NCBI RefSeq assembly: GCF_011067135.1
Contig: NZ_JAAMOW010000004.1
Span: 248,001-312,000 of the forward strand
Direction of reading: 5' to 3'
Source: Solimonas terrae
GTDB taxonomy: Bacteria; Pseudomonadota; Gammaproteobacteria; Nevskiales; Nevskiaceae
DNA length: 64,000 bases
The position numbers and the translations under genes were made by a program. Positions within the stretch are counted from its first letter, which is position 1, and each line of letters starts with the position of its first letter. Positions 34,488-41,925 of the stretch are shown piece by piece. The notes under the pieces were generated by a model that worked only from the letters and a program-made list of their open reading frames with translations, was not told the origin of the DNA and searched no databases.

Positions 34488-35714
34488 GTGAAGATCGAGA
34501 CTTGCCTGGCGGAGCATATCCCGGCAGCGATGCTGCTGAATCGCGAGGTGCTCGATCATCCATATCCGCTCTATGCGCATCTGCGCCGGACCGCGCCGGT
34601 GTGGCATGTGCCCGGGACCGGGATATTCATGGTGACCAGCTACGCCTTGCTGGAGGAAGCAGCCGGCCGCGTCGAGGATTTCTCCTCCCACATGCGCAGT
34701 GTCGTCTACCAACGGCGCGATGGAACACCGGCCCGTCTGACGCGTGGCGGTCTCCTGCAGGTCCTGGCGACCGCCGATCCGCCGGCCCATACGGCGCACA
34801 GGCGGGCCGTGTTTCCGGATCTGGTCGCCAGACGGATGGCGGCGATGGCGCCGGAGATTGAACAACTTGCGGATCAATGCATCGATCGTCTGCTGCAAGC
34901 GGGTTCGGGCGATTTCATGGCATCCGTGGCAAATCCGCTGCCGATCGCCATCGTCAACAAGTTGATCGGGTTCAAGGGCGGCGACATCAGGAAGATGCTG
35001 CAGGCCGCGTTCGACTCGTCTGCCGTGGTGGGTGGAACGTCGACGCTGCTGCAGTTGGCGATCTGCCTGCTGCGCAGCTTTGTCACGCATCGCTGGATCG
35101 CGGCCCAGCTGCGCGCCGCTTCCGCGGTGGGCGACAACATTCTGGCCTCGGTCAGCCGAAGTGTGGAAAGCGGCGCGCTGCGCGAGTCGGAAGCCCGGGC
35201 GATACTGCACATCATGCTCGCGGCTGGCGGCGAATCGACGACCAGCCTGCTGGGCAATGCGGTGCGAATCCTGGCCGACGATCAGGCCCTGCAGCGGCAA
35301 CTTCGCGCGCAGCCGGAACTGATCCCGAACTTCATGGAGGAAGTATTGCGGCTGGAATCGCCTTTCCGGCACCACCTGCGCGTTGCCACGCGCGACACCG
35401 TCCTGGGTGGCGTCGCGATTCCGGCAGGCGCGACGGTCCTGATGTTCTGGAGCGCCGGCAACCGCGATTCGGCCGCCTTCGAAAATCCCGACGAGATCGA
35501 CCTGGCGCGGACGCGCCGGCACATGAGCTTCGGCAAGGGCATTCACATGTGCGTGGGCGCGCCACTCGCCAGGCTGGAAGGCCAGATCGTGCTGCGCAGA
35601 CTGCTCGCCCGCACCGCCTGCATCGCACTTGATCCGTCGAGAGCGCCGCGCTGGGTGCCGAGCCTGCAGGTGCGACGCCACGAGCGGCTGCCGATAACCG
35701 TCACCGCCATCTGA
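34488..35714 (+). CDS. Cytochrome P450
   Basis: Class I bacterial P450 of 408 aa. The heme-thiolate Cys355 lies in FGKGIHMCVGAPLARLE. The K-helix ExxR is EEVLRLE, and the I-helix oxygen-activation motif is AAGGESTTS, with Glu and Ser-Thr in place of the common Asp/Glu-Thr-Thr. No ferredoxin or ferredoxin reductase gene is adjacent, so redox partners must come from elsewhere. GTG 34488 is supported by GAAAGG eight bases upstream. It is divergent from the MarR gene and converges with the oxidase subunit IV gene. The substrate is unknown. Confidence 0.95.
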   Translation: MKIETCLAEHIPAAMLLNREVLDHPYPLYAHLRRTAPVWHVPGTGIFMVTSYALLEEAAGRVEDFSSHMRSVVYQRRDGTPARLTRGGLLQVLATADPPAHTAHRRAVFPDLVARRMAAMAPEIEQLADQCIDRLLQAGSGDFMASVANPLPIAIVNKLIGFKGGDIRKMLQAAFDSSAVVGGTSTLLQLAICLLRSFVTHRWIAAQLRAASAVGDNILASVSRSVESGALRESEARAILHIMLAAGGESTTSLLGNAVRILADDQALQRQLRAQPELIPNFMEEVLRLESPFRHHLRVATRDTVLGGVAIPAGATVLMFWSAGNRDSAAFENPDEIDLARTRRHMSFGKGIHMCVGAPLARLEGQIVLRRLLARTACIALDPSRAPRWVPSLQVRRHERLPITVTAI

Positions 35715-35805: not shown

Positions 35806-36084
35806 TCACAGGCCTGCGAAATAAGCGCCGAGCAGGAAGGCGAACAGCAGGATCAGCCAGGCATTCAGGGTGCGCTGGAGCCACGCCGGCGCGTGGCGGA
35901 CTTCCATGAAATAGCGGATCACGAACTGCGCTTTTACCGCCGCAATCAGCAGCACGCCGGTCGTGACGAGGGCGCTCATCTGTGCGCTGCCGCCGACATC
36001 GCGGCTGAGCGCCCAGGAAACGACCGTGCTGAACGACAGGAACGCCCAGACGATGGTCAGGGGGTTTCGCAGATACGCGGTCAT
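35806..36084 (-). CDS. Cytochrome c oxidase subunit IV-like small membrane protein
   Basis: Membrane protein of 92 aa with three predicted helices. The pattern RNPLTIVWAFLSFSTVVSW, then KAQFVIRYFMEVRHAP and a final helix LNAWLILLFAFLLGAYF matches prokaryotic oxidase subunit IV (COX4_pro/NorF-like). KAxFVxxYFMEL is the family core. It lies three bases after the subunit III gene. The genes for catalytic subunits I and II are not nearby. Last gene of the TonB-receptor operon. Confidence 0.85.
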   Translation of the reverse strand: MTAYLRNPLTIVWAFLSFSTVVSWALSRDVGGSAQMSALVTTGVLLIAAVKAQFVIRYFMEVRHAPAWLQRTLNAWLILLFAFLLGAYFAGL

Positions 36085-36087
36085 GCG

Positions 36088-36699
36088 CTACCTCATCAGA
36101 TAGAACAGCGCGAACAGCACCAGCCACAGCAGATCGACCATGTGCCAGTAGGTGGCGCCGGCTTCGATGAACTTCATGTCGGGGGCTTTCGATATCCGCA
36201 GATCGCGGATCACGAAGCACATGATCACCAGGCCAAGCATCACGTGACAGAGATGCAGGCCGGCCATCACGTAATAGAACATGAAGAACAGATTGTGTCC
36301 CGGCGTCAGTCCGGCGCCGAGTTCGGGCAGCCACTCGACCAATTTCAGGATCGGGAAGAGCGCGCCGGTCGCGGCCGCGAAGACGAACAGCCGCATCGCG
36401 TCGCGCGCCTTGCCGAGGCGCGCGGTCTGGGTGCCGAGCGCGACGAACAGCGAACTGGTGAGCAGGACCACGGTGTTGATCGCGCCGATGCCCTGATTCA
36501 GATGCTGTTCGCTGCTCAGGAACAGTGCGTGCTGCTGCTGTCGATAGACCACGTAGAGGACAAAGTAGATGGCGAAAATGAACAGGTCGCCGATCACGAA
36601 GAACCACATGCTCGGCTCACCGGGTACGTGCCGGGACCTTGTCACCACCGTCGTGCGCGTGTCGCGATCGACCACGGCGCTGGCGTCGGCCACGGTCAC
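36088..36699 (-). CDS. Heme-copper oxidase subunit III-like protein (NorE-like)
   Basis: Membrane protein of 203 aa with five predicted helices, the short NorE/subunit-III form. Conserved elements are GEPSMWFFVIGDLFIFAIYF near the start, GHNLFFMFYYVMAGLHLCHVMLG in the middle and ATYWHMVDLLWLVLFALFYLM at the end. The GTG start at 36699 overlaps the stop of the preceding gene (GTGA), so translation is coupled. Subunit III normally binds subunit I; here it has no subunit I partner in the window and is joined to two unfamiliar membrane proteins and a TonB receptor. Confidence 0.9.
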   Translation of the reverse strand: MTVADASAVVDRDTRTTVVTRSRHVPGEPSMWFFVIGDLFIFAIYFVLYVVYRQQQHALFLSSEQHLNQGIGAINTVVLLTSSLFVALGTQTARLGKARDAMRLFVFAAATGALFPILKLVEWLPELGAGLTPGHNLFFMFYYVMAGLHLCHVMLGLVIMCFVIRDLRISKAPDMKFIEAGATYWHMVDLLWLVLFALFYLMR

Positions 36700-37493
36700 G
36701 CGCCGGCTCCCGCCGGGGCACGACCCGGCTTGCGTGCCACTGCGTTGTCCAGCTCGTCTTCGGGCTGATCCCGGATCGCCTTGTAGATGCAGACGTAGAC
36801 GATGAACTGCCAGGGCACGTAGATCAGCATCGCCAGCCAGAATGTCATCAGCCCGTTCCAGCCGAACGCGCCCGACTTGTCGATCCAGACCGGCGCGGCG
36901 ACCAGTTCGGTGACGAATTGCCAGACCGTGTAGTAACCCAGCCACTTCGGCAGGATGTTGTTGTGGTCGAGCAGGATCGCGAGGCCGAACGCCATCCACA
37001 TCGCGCAGAAACAGCCCAGCGAGCCGATGAACGCCAGATAGCCGAAGTCGTAGAGCATCTGCAGTACGGCTGGCTCGTAACCCGAGCGGAAGGCGCCGAG
37101 ACCGAAGCAGAACAGCGGGAACAGCATGCCGACGATGGCGCCGGCGATCGAGCCGATCATCAGGGTCACGCGAAACGCCGGGTTCACCGACATGCGCTTC
37201 ATCTGTGTCAGATAGACCGCGTTCGAGACCGGCGCCAGACCGTAGGCGAGCGTGAGGATTGCGCAGGCGAGCAGCAGATTGTGCGACTGCATGAACGCGA
37301 CGACATCCGGCAACGGACTGCTCGGCGAGCGCGGTGGCATCATCCAGCTCAGCGGCACGAAGACAATGCCGAACAGATTGTAGAAGAACGGTACGCTCCA
37401 GTAGCAGATCCACTGATCGAGCTTCTTGCTTTTGCGCCACGGGATCTTTTGCGCAGCTGCGGCGGGCAGGGTCGATGCGGTCGTCGTGTTCAC
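36696..37493 (-). CDS. Polytopic membrane protein of unknown function (paralogue B)
   Basis: Protein of 265 aa with about six or seven hydrophobic helices. I recognise no named family. It is clearly related to the product of the preceding gene: shared marks in the same order are P-D/E-V-x-A-F, a Q-M-x-R-I/M turn, L-x-D-M/F-x-W/Y-L-x-F, a P-K/R-W-x-x-x-F/Y turn and K-S/T-G-x-x-x-W-N-G. It has a longer cytoplasmic N-terminus and a charged C-terminal tail ending GRAPAGAGA. Its ATG overlaps the upstream stop (ATGA) and its stop overlaps the subunit III start (GTGA), so three proteins are made in coupled fashion. Confidence 0.85.
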   Translation of the reverse strand: MNTTTASTLPAAAAQKIPWRKSKKLDQWICYWSVPFFYNLFGIVFVPLSWMMPPRSPSSPLPDVVAFMQSHNLLLACAILTLAYGLAPVSNAVYLTQMKRMSVNPAFRVTLMIGSIAGAIVGMLFPLFCFGLGAFRSGYEPAVLQMLYDFGYLAFIGSLGCFCAMWMAFGLAILLDHNNILPKWLGYYTVWQFVTELVAAPVWIDKSGAFGWNGLMTFWLAMLIYVPWQFIVYVCIYKAIRDQPEDELDNAVARKPGRAPAGAGA

Positions 37494-38194
37494 GCGATCA
37501 TCTCCGCGTTGTCACGTTGATTGCCGACGACGCGCAGCAGTACCAGGAACATCACCGCGACGTAGACCGAGAACGTGGCCAGGCGCAAGCTGAAAGACAG
37601 GCTGCCGTTCCACGCCAGCGGTCCGGTCTTGTACAGCAGCGAGAATGCGCCCGGGATCATCAATACGGCGGTCGCGACGTTGAAATGCGCGACCCAGCGT
37701 GGAAACACCGGTTCGGTGCGGCTGTCGAGATAGACGCACAAGGCAAGGCAGAGGTTCTGCACGACGATGGCCCCGACCGGCGCCGTGAACAGAAACCACG
37801 CCATGTCGTTGAGCAGGCTGATCAGCTGCGGATCGCGATCAGGGCGAAAGGCGGCAACGCCCCAGCAATAGTCGGCGAGGATGAACGACGTCGTGCCGAT
37901 GCCGATGCAGATGATGTACGCGTAGGTGAAGACCGCGCTGGAGTTGCCGATGCGCGACATCTGCGTCGCCGTCACCGCGAACAGTGGTGCCAGCGAGGCG
38001 CCGATCAGATTGCCGAGAATGACGACGCCCAGTATTCCCGAGACATTGGCACGAAAGAAGGCGGCAACTTCTTGCGGACTCAGTGTCGGCGACATCTGCG
38101 GCGAGAACACCGGAAACATGAACCAGGCCAGCACGAACAGCGCGCCGGCGAATGGCGTGATCCACAGCAGGATGCGTTGGCCGCGGGTGTTCAT
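37490..38194 (-). CDS. Polytopic membrane protein of unknown function (paralogue A)
   Basis: Protein of 234 aa with about seven hydrophobic helices. The segment FSPQMSPTLSPQEVAAFFRAN follows helix 1, TATQMSRIGN marks a loop, and FPRWVAHFN and KTGPLAWNGSLSF are the other landmarks. It is paralogous to the next gene downstream. No cofactor-binding histidine pattern like that of oxidase subunit I is evident; few His residues are present. It follows the TonB receptor gene by 75 bases and overlaps the next gene (ATGA). Function unknown; association with oxidase subunits III and IV suggests a membrane complex. Confidence 0.85.
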   Translation of the reverse strand: MNTRGQRILLWITPFAGALFVLAWFMFPVFSPQMSPTLSPQEVAAFFRANVSGILGVVILGNLIGASLAPLFAVTATQMSRIGNSSAVFTYAYIICIGIGTTSFILADYCWGVAAFRPDRDPQLISLLNDMAWFLFTAPVGAIVVQNLCLALCVYLDSRTEPVFPRWVAHFNVATAVLMIPGAFSLLYKTGPLAWNGSLSFSLRLATFSVYVAVMFLVLLRVVGNQRDNAEMIA

Positions 38195-38269
38195 TGCATG
38201 CTCTCGTTCATGGTTTCAGCCGCGGCCACTTCGGCCGGCGGCAGCCTTCGGACATGGATTCGTGTTGTC

Positions 38270-40837
38270 TCAATTGCCCCAGCGATAGCTGAGATTGGCG
38301 CCAACAATGCGAGGCTCCGAATAGATCGCGGAGTCGAAGTACGTCAGATGCCACTGGTTGCTGTTCGAGATCCGGTATTCCTTGTTGGCGAGATTGGTTC
38401 CGTACAGCTGCAGATCGAACTGCGAGTTCATGATGTGGCGCCAGCTGATGCTCGCGTTGAGCAGCCCGGCCGCGGGCAGTTCGGCACCCGGCTCGTCGCC
38501 AGGCAAGGTGGTCTGCGCCGAGTAGTGCGAGTCGGTCCAGGCGTAGGTCACGGACGGCTCGATGTCGCCGTACGCGGGATCGAACGGCAGCAGATAACGG
38601 GCCGACAGGCTGTACTGATGGCGCGGCGCATCGTAGGGAATGCAGCTCAGCTCCAGCACGTCACCGCTTTGCCGCTGCTGGCCGCTGCAGTCCAGCTGCT
38701 GCGTGGCGCCGGCGTAGAGCAGATCGAACTTCTGGTATTCGCCGCGGGTGTAGCCGTAGCTGCCGACGAAGGTGAAGCCGGTGAACGGTTCGATCGTCGC
38801 GTCCATTTCGAAACCGGCGACCCAGGCCTTGCCGACGTTGAAGATGGCTTCGCCGAGCTGCGGGACCGGGCTCAAGGAGTGCGGCGGCACGTAGGCGTCG
38901 GAACCGGCCTTCTGCAGGTTCTTGTAGTCCGTGTAGTAGACCGCCGAGTTGATGCGGGCCGGAATGCCGGCGATCTCGAAGTCGGTTTTCTCGCCGAGCT
39001 CGTAGTTGGTCACGTATTCCGGCTTGTAGGTGTAATGGTCGGGATTGACCACGACCACCGAGATGCCCCCGGACTTGTAGCCGCGGCTGACCTTGCCGTA
39101 CAGCAGCGTCGTGCCGAGCTTGTAGTCCAGCCCCGCCGTGTAGGTCAGCGCCGAGGCTTTGGCTTCGGCGTCGTGCGACGCATCGACCAGCGGCACGAGG
39201 CCGGCCGCGACTTGCCGGATCGATGCCGTGCCGTCGGTGTCGTCCCAGGTATAGCGGACACCGGCAGTCAGGCTCAGGCCCGACAGGGCATCGAACAGTG
39301 CGCCGAGATCATAGGTGCCCTGGGCGAACGGAGCGATCGAGCGCTTCGTCAAATCGTACTTCTGCACGACGTTGACGAAGAACAGCGAGGTGCCATCGAT
39401 CTGGCCCTTCGAGTCGGTGTGCTCGTAATAGCCGCCGACCACGTACTTGAGCGCATCGTTCAGCGCCTTGCCCTGCAACTGCAACTCTTCGGTGACGGTG
39501 TCGAGATTGGCTTCGTCGTTGTCGCGCGGATTGATGAAGTCGTTGAATGCGGCGCGCGAACCGTCGAGGTCCCAGCGATACTGATGCGTGAAGGACGAAT
39601 AGCTGGCGATGTTGCGCAGCTTCAGATCTTCATCGAGGTCGTAGCTGAACTGATCGACGACTGCGCCGGTGTTCAGATTGTCCGTCGGATCGGCACTGAG
39701 CTGGACCTTGCGGTTGCCGCGCGCCGCCTGCTCGTCGAGGATGTCCTGTCCGCAGTTGGTCGACGGCCCGAACAGATTCACGACCAGGCAGCCGAGATTG
39801 GCGACCTGCGTCAGGTCCAGGCCGGGAATCTGCGAAAGCGCGCCGAGCCCGACCGTCGCCGGAATGGCCTGATTGATTCCCTCCCGGTTGACCTGCTTGA
39901 TGACCGTCGCCGTGCCGTTGTCGCTGCTGTTGGTGTAGTACCCCATGAAGTAGTTTTCGACGCTGTCGGTCGGCCGCCAGGTCAGCGCGCCACGCCCGGT
40001 CCAGTAGTGCTTGCTGTCGTAGTCCTTGCCGCTCACGACGTCCCTGGTGAAGCCATCGCGCTGCACGAACTGCCCCGCGAAGCGCGACATCAGCGTGTCG
40101 CCGATCAACGGAATGTTGACCATGCCCTCGTAGCTCTGGCCGGCGTAGCTCGAGGCGCCCGCCTGCAGCGACGCGGAGAATTCGGGTTCGGGCTTGTGGG
40201 GTTCCAGCAGCATCGCGCCGCCCGTGGTGTTGCGACCGAACAGCGTGCCCTGCGATCCCTTGAGGATCTGCAGATTGGAGAGATCGAGGAACTTGCCGGG
40301 ACCGCCCTGGTTGTTGGCGACCGGGTCCGACGGCAGCGGCACTTCCGCCATGTAGATCACCACGCCGGGGCTGGCGCCGTACTGCGCGCCCTGGCCGCGG
40401 ATGGTCGGCGATTCGGTGTTGCGCATCTGGCTGCTGGAACTGATCACCAGCGATGGCACACGGCCCTGCAGATCCTGCGGCGTGTTGATCTGCTCGCGCT
40501 GCAGATCGTCGGCGTTCATCGTCGAAATGGCGACCGGCACGTCCTGCAGGTTTTCCGCGGTGCGCCGCGCGGTGACGATGACTTCCGCGATCCCGCTTGC
40601 CGGCGCGGCTTGCGGAGCGGCGACCGGCGCAGGTGGTGCCGCCGGTAGCGGGATGCTGCTGTAGACATCGGTCGTCGCTTCCGGACCGGACGCCGCGGAC
40701 GGCGCGACCTGTGTCGCCTCATCGCCAGGCGAGGCGGTCTGCTGTGCCGCAGCCGGCAAGGCCAGCAGCAAGGCCGGACACAGTGCCAGCGACGCTGCGC
40801 CTCGGCGGGAAAATCGCTTCAAGGCATCTTGCTTCAC
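38270..40837 (-). CDS. TonB-dependent outer-membrane receptor
   Basis: Outer-membrane transporter of 855 aa. A signal peptide (SLALCPALLLALPAAAQ) precedes a Pro/Ala-rich linker. The plug domain starts EVIVTARRTAENLQDVPVAI and includes NTPQDLQGRVPSLVISSSS and LQILKGSQGTLFGRNTTGGA. The barrel ends RIVGANLSYRWGN, lacking a terminal Phe. The start is GTG 40837 with GGAGG five bases upstream; an overlapping ATG is out of frame. The plug type is common in sphingomonad-like receptors for organic substrates rather than classic siderophore receptors. It heads the operon that continues into the paralogous membrane proteins and oxidase subunits III/IV. Confidence 0.94.
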   Translation of the reverse strand: MKQDALKRFSRRGAASLALCPALLLALPAAAQQTASPGDEATQVAPSAASGPEATTDVYSSIPLPAAPPAPVAAPQAAPASGIAEVIVTARRTAENLQDVPVAISTMNADDLQREQINTPQDLQGRVPSLVISSSSQMRNTESPTIRGQGAQYGASPGVVIYMAEVPLPSDPVANNQGGPGKFLDLSNLQILKGSQGTLFGRNTTGGAMLLEPHKPEPEFSASLQAGASSYAGQSYEGMVNIPLIGDTLMSRFAGQFVQRDGFTRDVVSGKDYDSKHYWTGRGALTWRPTDSVENYFMGYYTNSSDNGTATVIKQVNREGINQAIPATVGLGALSQIPGLDLTQVANLGCLVVNLFGPSTNCGQDILDEQAARGNRKVQLSADPTDNLNTGAVVDQFSYDLDEDLKLRNIASYSSFTHQYRWDLDGSRAAFNDFINPRDNDEANLDTVTEELQLQGKALNDALKYVVGGYYEHTDSKGQIDGTSLFFVNVVQKYDLTKRSIAPFAQGTYDLGALFDALSGLSLTAGVRYTWDDTDGTASIRQVAAGLVPLVDASHDAEAKASALTYTAGLDYKLGTTLLYGKVSRGYKSGGISVVVVNPDHYTYKPEYVTNYELGEKTDFEIAGIPARINSAVYYTDYKNLQKAGSDAYVPPHSLSPVPQLGEAIFNVGKAWVAGFEMDATIEPFTGFTFVGSYGYTRGEYQKFDLLYAGATQQLDCSGQQRQSGDVLELSCIPYDAPRHQYSLSARYLLPFDPAYGDIEPSVTYAWTDSHYSAQTTLPGDEPGAELPAAGLLNASISWRHIMNSQFDLQLYGTNLANKEYRISNSNQWHLTYFDSAIYSEPRIVGANLSYRWGN

Positions 40838-41010: not shown

Positions 41011-41925
41011 TCAGGCGCGAGCGGGCCGATCGTCCGGCTTGAAGCCCGCCGCGTAGAACGAGCGGTGGGCGAGCAGCGATTGCTGGTACTCGCCGGGCGT
41101 CATGCCGACCGAGCGCCGGAACGCCGCGCAGAAATTGGACGAGGAAGAAAAGCCCAGCGCGCCGGCAATTGCGCCGACGCTTTCATCGGCGGCGAGCATG
41201 CGCTTGGCGTGGGTGATCTGGCGATCGACCACGAAGGCGCCGACCGAGCAGCCGCGCGTGCTGCGAAAGCTGCGCGTCAGCTGGCGCACGGAGATGCAGC
41301 AGAGTTCGGCCAGTTCATGCAGGCTCGGACTGCTGCGAATCTCGTACAGCCGTTCCTCGATGCGCCGCAGCTGCCAGGCTGCCAGGCCGCCGCGAATCTG
41401 GCGTTCCGGCAGCGCGGCGCCGTAGCGCAGCAGATCGACGCCCAGCTGCGCGGCGATCGACTCGACGAGAATCTGGCTGGCGAAACCCGGGTGCCGAGCC
41501 TCGTCGGCCAGGCGCAGCATCAGGTAGCGGACATTCGCGTCGCGGACGTCGAGGCCGAGGATCAGGAAGCGGTCGGTGAATTCCGGCAGGCGGTCGAACA
41601 GCGCCATCACCGGCGCCACTTCGAGCATGCAGACCAGCGATTTCAGGGTGCGGTCTTCGTCGGCGCGGGCTGCCATGTCGAGGGTCGGCGGCACCACGAA
41701 CAATTCACCGATGCGCTCGAAGTGCTCGGTGGTCCAGTAGTCGACAAAGCTGGCGCGGGCGCTGCGGTGTCTCGTGTTCAGACACAGTTCGACGCGGATC
41801 TTGTCGTCGAGATGGACGACGCTGGTCGGCGGCTCGTCGAAGCGGTACTCGATGAGCTGCACCTGCGCGCTGGGCGCAGCGAGTTCTGCTTCGACATGGA
41901 TCGATGCGCGTGCGCGGCTAGTCAT
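41011..41925 (-). CDS. AraC-family regulator
   Basis: Regulator of 304 aa. The C-terminal HTH pair is recognisable (LHELAELCCISVRQLTRSFR, ESVGAIAGALGFSSSSNFCAAFRRSVGMTPGEYQ). The N-terminal sensor domain does not resemble the OruR/ArgR-like domain of the other three AraC regulators in this window. It sits 173 bases upstream of the TonB receptor gene on the same strand and diverges from the POT transporter gene, so it could control either or both. Confidence 0.92.
   Translation of the reverse strand: MTSRARASIHVEAELAAPSAQVQLIEYRFDEPPTSVVHLDDKIRVELCLNTRHRSARASFVDYWTTEHFERIGELFVVPPTLDMAARADEDRTLKSLVCMLEVAPVMALFDRLPEFTDRFLILGLDVRDANVRYLMLRLADEARHPGFASQILVESIAAQLGVDLLRYGAALPERQIRGGLAAWQLRRIEERLYEIRSSPSLHELAELCCISVRQLTRSFRSTRGCSVGAFVVDRQITHAKRMLAADESVGAIAGALGFSSSSNFCAAFRRSVGMTPGEYQQSLLAHRSFYAAGFKPDDRPARA

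Follow-up and report, generated by a model that had tools for sequence, protein, structure and literature searches.

The minus strand of a 64,000-nucleotide stretch of the Solimonas terrae genome (contig NZ_JAAMOW010000004.1, positions 248,001 to 312,000; hereafter the window) carries a cassette of four genes, A-B-III-IV, in which two paralogous membrane proteins of an unnamed family (A and B) are coupled to relatives of the heme-copper oxidase subunits III and IV. The gene order is conserved in very different bacteria, the components co-occur by genome, and A, B and III have been exchanged jointly. III groups with NorE, an accessory protein of nitric oxide reductase, and neither NorB, NorC nor an oxidase subunit I was found at A-family loci. 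We tentatively propose that A-B-III-IV may form a membrane complex that receives lipophilic substrates at its periplasmic face and is scaffolded by a NorE/NorF-type pair.

A conserved four-gene module

Sequence and Pfam matches bore out the initial annotation of five minus-strand genes at 35806-40837, as follows.

38270-40837, minus strand: TonB-dependent receptor; GTG start; Pfam Plug at E 3.1e-11; solved receptors match residues 86-259
37490-38194, minus strand: A, a 234-amino-acid (aa) polytopic membrane protein of an unnamed family; no Pfam or NCBIfam match
36696-37493, minus strand: B, a 265-aa paralogue of A; GTG start; Pfam DUF3742 at 0.062, below cut-off only; NCBIfam at 0.14, sub-threshold only
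36088-36699, minus strand: III, NorE-type relative of oxidase subunit III by sequence; COX3 (PF00510) at E 1.1e-9, over cut-off
35806-36084, minus strand: IV, a 92-aa COX4_pro protein, read as NorF-like; PF03626 at E 1.3e-12, over cut-off

Three junctions had been described as tight. The GTGA overlap of B and III (36699-36696) and the 3-base gap between III and IV (36087-36085) stand as described; A and B do overlap by 4 bases at 37493-37490, but the sequence there reads GTGA and not ATGA. The receptor and A are spaced by 75 bases, so tight coupling is limited to the four genes A-B-III-IV. Since the match of III to its relatives begins near residue 24, its true start may lie downstream of 36699.

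When one collection of bacterial genomes was searched with B, 35 outside loci were obtained, of which 31 are mycobacterial, three gammaproteobacterial (L034, L036 and L038) and one from a Myxococcales metagenome-assembled genome; B of the window is up to 79% identical to the mycobacterial copies. Tabulation of the neighbours of A and B showed the four genes recurring jointly and in the identical order A-B-III-IV at all 35. Together with co-occurrence by genome (below), this upholds the earlier view of A, B, III and IV as a conserved module lacking subunits I/II, and its recurrence is far above chance.

The A family is present in 31 of 85 genomes of the window's taxonomic order (Nevskiales), with up to 15 matches per genome, and in 18 of 118 genomes of an actinobacterial sample, one match being weak. 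In Mycolicibacterium rhodesiae JS60 (G085) there are 49 A-family matches, some of them fragments and most on two contigs, and only 8 III matches; the A-family genes of this strain (L130-L149) stand among P450, CrtI-like FAD oxidoreductase, AveC-like and TetR genes. Eighteen plasmid records with an A match come from Rhodococcus, Sphingobium, Novosphingobium, Mycobacterium, Streptomyces, Pseudonocardia and Diaphorobacter. In the 13 plasmid regions inspected, A-family genes carry the label 'hypothetical protein', and an annotated subunit 3 gene lies within about 5 kb of A in 12 of them, the exception being a Streptomyces region.

Linkage of A to III was assessed with a profile of III. Among the matches listed for Nevskiales, scores formed a high class (at least 102 bits) and a low class (at most 73 bits), the latter presumed to be ordinary oxidase III as a class rather than by single checks, with four matches between (96-100 bits; L156, L157, L158 and L174) whose loci all carry a subunit I gene. 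High-class III was found in 30 of 31 A-family genomes and in none of the 54 others (Fisher 3.7e-22; the sampled genomes being related, this and the following p values overstate independence). An A-family gene lay within 1.5 kb of 61 of 69 high-class III genes, in 60 cases directly 5' on the same strand, and a further high-class III locus (L162) holds an A-family gene that the search had missed. Likewise in the actinobacterial sample, where the high class begins at 135 bits and the next match scores 81, high-class III was present in 17 of 18 A-family genomes versus 0 of 100 others (1.3e-19). Here A lay within 1.5 kb of 36 of the 40 III genes (32 directly 5'), a count that includes four extra JS60 A coordinates taken from a JS60-specific search. 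A IV gene was called beside III in 62 of 63 A-III loci; gene calls in relatives rely on a home-made codon score, by which genes may be missed or mis-started (IV of L077 was missed).

A and B are paralogues, as had been suggested, with 22-28% identity between A rows and B rows and a tblastn match of 26% identity (E about 4e-13). Their description as unfamiliar polytopic proteins also holds: besides the lack of a Pfam or NCBIfam model, the joint A/B profile found no PDB sequence match at E<=1 and Foldseek no PDB fold match for either protein at E<=0.001, although a missing match of the latter kind is weak evidence. The window's members of a membrane family with up to 49 matches per genome thus lack counterparts in Pfam, NCBIfam and PDB. 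Homology of A to AveC-like proteins (PF17198) was considered and rejected (hhalign probability 0.6, no Pfam match).

AlphaFold2 models were obtained for A (predicted local distance difference test score, pLDDT, 85.8; predicted template modelling score, pTM, 0.82) and B (pLDDT 75.3, pTM 0.68). As we read its model, A would possess six transmembrane helices with both termini inside, and charge bias favours this N-in/C-in topology in 147 of 148 family rows. In the same 148 rows conservation is highest in loops L3 and L5, which are predicted to face outward because the charge bias puts both termini in the cytoplasm. Positions conserved in 88-100% of the 148 members are P32, 33, P36, R81, R117, D130, D157, P165, W167, G191, P192, A194, W195 and G197, of which W167, G191 and G197 are invariant and R81, R117, D130 and D157 occur in 92-97%; position 33 is proline in 91% and glutamine in the window. 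No histidine is conserved among the 148, every histidine column reaching at most 45%, and the heme sites that had been envisaged in A and B are therefore unsupported.

The NorE/NorF-type pair and nitric oxide reductase genes

Judged by sequence, III is a NorE-type protein and not the oxidase subunit III of the initial annotation. A first tree, built without NorE rows and with 20 mycobacterial loci and two short sequences excluded, placed A-linked III apart from six oxidase III proteins (support 98/93). The label 'orphan oxidase III' was dropped once six NorE rows fell inside its clade. In this second tree of 42 hand-picked rows, 30 A-linked or unassigned III proteins and the 6 NorE rows form one clade versus the 6 oxidase III rows (98/98), inside which the NorE rows do not make up a clade of their own. 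The NorE rows derive from plasmid loci with genes that we take to be norC and norB beside NorQ and VWA genes, save one row from a plasmid locus with NorQ and VWA only. Against the III model the NorE rows score 128-161 bits, the six oxidase III rows 51-104 bits and III of the window 275 bits. III retains the YWHMVD motif. IV is read as NorF-like because it is paired with a NorE-like III, the reading coming from this pairing and not from a tree of IV.

Membership of PF00510 and PF03626, together with motifs, is shared with the oxidase subunits III/IV (CyoC/CyoD, CtaE, caa3 subunit IV). Oxidase III, however, falls outside the clade, and the cassette has no subunit I or II. An oxidase remnant was accordingly rejected as an explanation, as III groups with NorE and no subunit I is present at the locus.

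The host genome contains three PF00115 (COX1-family) genes, all outside the window, and tblastn of the window was likewise negative for subunit I, in line with what had been noted from the sequence. One of the three adjoins COX3 and one precedes its own III and IV. The third is followed by genes that we recognised by eye as presumptive ccoO, ccoP and ccoG, and it is taken to be cbb3 for that reason. None of the three is NorB (genome 99.67% complete). The host nevertheless carries two NorE/NorF-type III/IV pairs. The second (L074, G000:C3:73000-92999) lies near an amidohydrolase gene and a gene that by eye we take to be an SDR, with a lone A-family gene 14 kb off.

This absence extends to the relatives. 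In a tblastn search of 236 loci with three COX1 and five NorB proteins plus NorC, no match was found at A-family loci, and hence no subunit I adjacent to the module. The same search detects COX1 at L156-L158 and L174, all four loci with intermediate III, and NorB at five of the six NorE loci, the queries being drawn from those five (cross-identities 66-71%).

Compared with the described NorE/NorF system, the cassette keeps the III-IV gene pair and the membership of one clade. It differs in that the partner is the A family, with no NorB in the host or matched at A-family loci, and in its neighbours, which are importer, regulator and catabolic genes. Persistence of NorE/NorF-type pairs in a genome without NorB goes further than the known separation from norCB, and a pair with a fixed partner and no NorB offers a direct way to ask what NorE/NorF do. 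On that point an excerpt of PMC9976466 reports no effect of NorE and NorF on heterologous nitric oxide reductase expression.

Probable cassette exchange and candidate importers

Two further genes flank the five already listed.

41011-41925, minus strand: AraC-family regulator (HTH_18), upstream of the operon on the same strand; kept together with TonB in some relatives
34488-35714, plus strand: cytochrome P450 (PF00067), convergent neighbour of the cassette

The receptor and regulator of the window are 80% and 74% identical to those of L167, a locus from the same family as the host (AraC identity falls to 59% for L082 and 58% for L077). A, B, III and IV, in contrast, are only 39-44% identical to L167 and 53-77% identical to a mycobacterium (L009) and three gammaproteobacteria (L034, L036 and L038). 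The trees of A, B and III are concordant in their main groups and that of TonB is discordant. A clade uniting the window and L167 was rejected by the approximately unbiased (AU) test for A (p-AU 1.6e-46), B (5.3e-63) and III (2.6e-6); the TonB tree does join them, with support of 87/89, which is not strong. For IV the agreement with A, B and III is one of identity only. Most simply read, the A-B-III-IV cassette was probably exchanged as one unit behind AraC-TonB. Moreover, two cassettes of the actinobacterial sample, L190 and L195, are placed among those from Nevskiales, from which it follows that transfer has crossed phyla more than once. That the cassette travels between very different bacteria, without a reductase, points to an undescribed membrane complex.

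The fixed coupling to a TonB receptor proposed earlier holds in part. Within Nevskiales the receptor lies directly upstream of A-B-III-IV at all seven fetched loci and, with the window, at 8/8; the ninth A-B-III-IV genome (G029) is outside the count, its contig ending there. Elsewhere, however, a related receptor was found at only 2 of the 35 outside loci (directly upstream in L038, downstream in L034), 31 of them being mycobacterial, where no TonB is expected, and the history of the receptor differs from that of the cassette. Directly upstream of single-A loci it occurs once in 20 (seven of the 20 being actinobacterial), and three sphingomonad plasmids have annotated TonB genes in the vicinity of the module. 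As a neighbour the TonB receptor is lineage-specific; it is not a fixed member of the module.

In actinobacteria, L099 has YrbE/MCE genes directly adjoining the module and L178 has them adjoining in divergent orientation; the distance is 4-5 kb in L094 and up to about 10 kb in five mycobacterial loci. We regard the importer idea as firm where TonB accompanies A-B pairs in Nevskiales, and as no more than suggestive for MCE.

Proposed function and competing readings

In our preferred reading a lipophilic substrate would be delivered by the TonB receptor, a task that in some actinobacteria would fall to an MCE system. The four cassette proteins would bind each other, and the conserved outward loops of A and B, if topology, conservation and neighbours are a guide, would receive the substrate. 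It would then be passed to the inner membrane or cytoplasm, where enzymes of P450, SDR or CoA type may act. III/IV would serve as a shared scaffold and A/B as the substrate-specific part, an arrangement that would explain 49 A-family matches against 8 III matches in JS60. Uptake or processing of a receptor-delivered substrate is plausible. The complete proposal of a lipophile-receiving complex on a NorE/NorF-type scaffold we hold as a preference rather than a conviction, judging it likelier than any one of its competitors but somewhat short of even chances.

Known systems offer partial parallels. In ECF transporters many substrate subunits share one energising module; the many A-family genes per few III/IV pairs invite a comparison of working principle only, with no homology shown and no ATPase in the cassette. 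An excerpt of PMC7793797 links EdcT, a TonB receptor, to estrogen uptake, which we count in favour of the proposal. Like catabolic loci with EdcT and the actinobacterial mce4 steroid transporter, several plasmids combine an importer and catabolic genes near the module. Those two systems differ from it in being described, in the same excerpt, without A-family or NorE/NorF-type proteins. AveC-like proteins resemble A in being membrane-type and in their similar neighbourhood, and occur in a co-occurring locus considered below; they differ in that they have no detectable homology to A and are paired in that locus with NorQ/VWA, not III/IV. The literature searched, part of it as excerpts, held no description of A-family proteins with III/IV, and we found no known counterpart of the A-B-III-IV system, III/IV alone being a known accessory family. 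If the complex is physical, A-B-III-IV would be new in kind; if III/IV are merely nearby genes, what is left would be a membrane family that is new, beside a neighbour of a kind already known. A complex that handled oily substrates would close a gap in degraders, the one between importers of the outer envelope and oxidation in the cytoplasm.

Several observations weigh against a lipophile-receiving complex. No recognisable transporter fold was found in the A and B models (Foldseek versus PDB). III lies within 1.5 kb of only 70 of 111 A-family matches in Nevskiales, and III/IV may therefore be dispensable. Enrichment was examined at 20 of the 40 actinobacterial III loci, with 19 control stretches, taken from eight of those genomes at arbitrary round coordinates, for comparison: it was not significant for MCE (3/20 versus 0/19, p 0.23) and was absent for P450 (6/20 versus 2/19, p 0.24), SDR (3 versus 4), CoA ligase, Rieske and the other catabolic families tried. 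In addition, an excerpt of PMC8139620 calls NorE/NorF function 'not well defined' and states that norE/norF can lie apart from norCB or be absent in some genomes. The NorE/NorF analogy explains little, because the function is unsettled and separate norE/norF genes are already on record.

The main rival casts the A family as cofactor-free membrane enzymes, of isomerase, cyclase or hydratase type, which act on a lipophilic intermediate and are in some cases stabilised by III/IV. The invariant tryptophan and glycines, the charged residues at 92-97% and the want of a conserved histidine all suit such an enzyme. So does JS60, where many A paralogues are interspersed with genes for P450, FAD oxidoreductase and AveC-like proteins. 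It also gains from the co-occurring locus, where the AveC-like family (a Pfam name taken from a spirocyclase) is found; A, however, is not detectably related to AveC-like proteins, and no solved enzyme fold matched A or B. We regard this rival as only a little less likely than the complex, and as the competitor to be taken most seriously. A second possibility assigns III/IV their part in nitric oxide reductase, serving NO or O2 respiration with A/B as regulatory or protective partners. The grouping of III with NorE fits this, and NorQ occurs in five fetched loci (L075, L130, L138 and L142 with the A family, L161 with III/IV), with VWA alongside in four. CbbQ/NorQ-type AAA+ genes also co-occur with the A family by genome (13/31 A-family genomes versus 5/54 others, p 7e-4). 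The reductase itself, however, is what neither the host's three COX1-family genes nor the A-family loci among the 236 provide, and the neighbours seen are TonB, AraC, TetR and P450 genes; a respiratory role is improbable.

The kinship of III and IV with oxidase subunits could also be accommodated by a redox complex in which the incoming substrate is oxidised by A/B with bound heme or quinone. The A/B family has no conserved histidine, however, and neither protein matched the fold of an oxidase subunit at E<=0.001. Heme-based redox activity of A/B is unlikely, and we rate a redox complex as a whole a little lower still than the respiratory role. Finally, III/IV might be alternative subunits of ordinary oxidases, for which the three COX1-family genes elsewhere in the genome would provide partners, with A/B as unrelated hitch-hikers. 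NorE-type III tracks the A family in two genome samples, however, and the main groups are the same in the trees of A, B and III but not in that of TonB; mere hitch-hiking therefore has very little to commend it.

The lipophile-receiving complex may itself be part of something broader, in which the accessory proteins of nitric oxide reductase have taken on a new use as a general platform for other membrane machines. The A family would be attended by NorE/NorF-type pairs, and AveC-like proteins together with further small membrane proteins by NorQ/VWA-type pairs; both sets would lie behind dedicated importers of a single lipophile pathway, and one scaffold pair would work with many substrate-specific A proteins. 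We advance this extension with slightly more reserve than the complex itself, as a conjecture that may well prove wrong. At L231, NorQ and VWA occur with no NorB within 5 kb. At least two CbbQ/NorQ copies were present in seven of nine A-B-III-IV genomes, picked from A and III match coordinates, versus 0 of 76 others (p 7e-9, a post hoc comparison). Six of those seven (the host at C19:190000-209500, G041, G058, G026, G050 and G029) share a gene set, each with most of the following: VWA proteins, NorQ, AveC-like proteins, TonB receptors and small membrane proteins without a Pfam match. In G058 the gene calls of L243/L244 show part of the set, and the NorQ genes found in the count by genome are not visible there. 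The nearest NorQ in G041 lies about 17 kb from A.

The host locus (L239, G000:C19:190000-209500), outside the window, comprises two CbbQ/NorQ-type AAA+ genes, two VWA genes, two AveC-like genes and a TonB receptor; a second gene, of 864 aa, resembles a TonB receptor by appearance. Small membrane-type proteins of 231 and 149/137 aa are repeated there, and the three that were scanned had no Pfam match. In L161 (G030:C66, 3347-7920), NorQ, VWA, III and IV are consecutive on one strand; neither NorB nor an A-family gene was found there, and the gene that follows encodes a 246-aa protein without a Pfam match. Parts of the reductase's accessory set thus recur around A-family systems in the absence of the reductase itself.

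A TetR-type gene was seen near A in 26 fetched loci. In the plasmid of Streptomyces sp. NBC_00080 (L222), mftA-mftG lie upstream of an A-family gene with two genes between, and no III/IV is annotated nearby. The mycofactocin link that this suggested found no support in Nevskiales, where MftC was over cut-off in 0 of 85 genomes and sub-threshold in 36, as it was in seven control genomes. The P450 at 34488-35714 has as its best solved relative a protein named CYP144 (PDB match at E 1.4e-75) and is 68% identical to the P450 near the cassette in L082.

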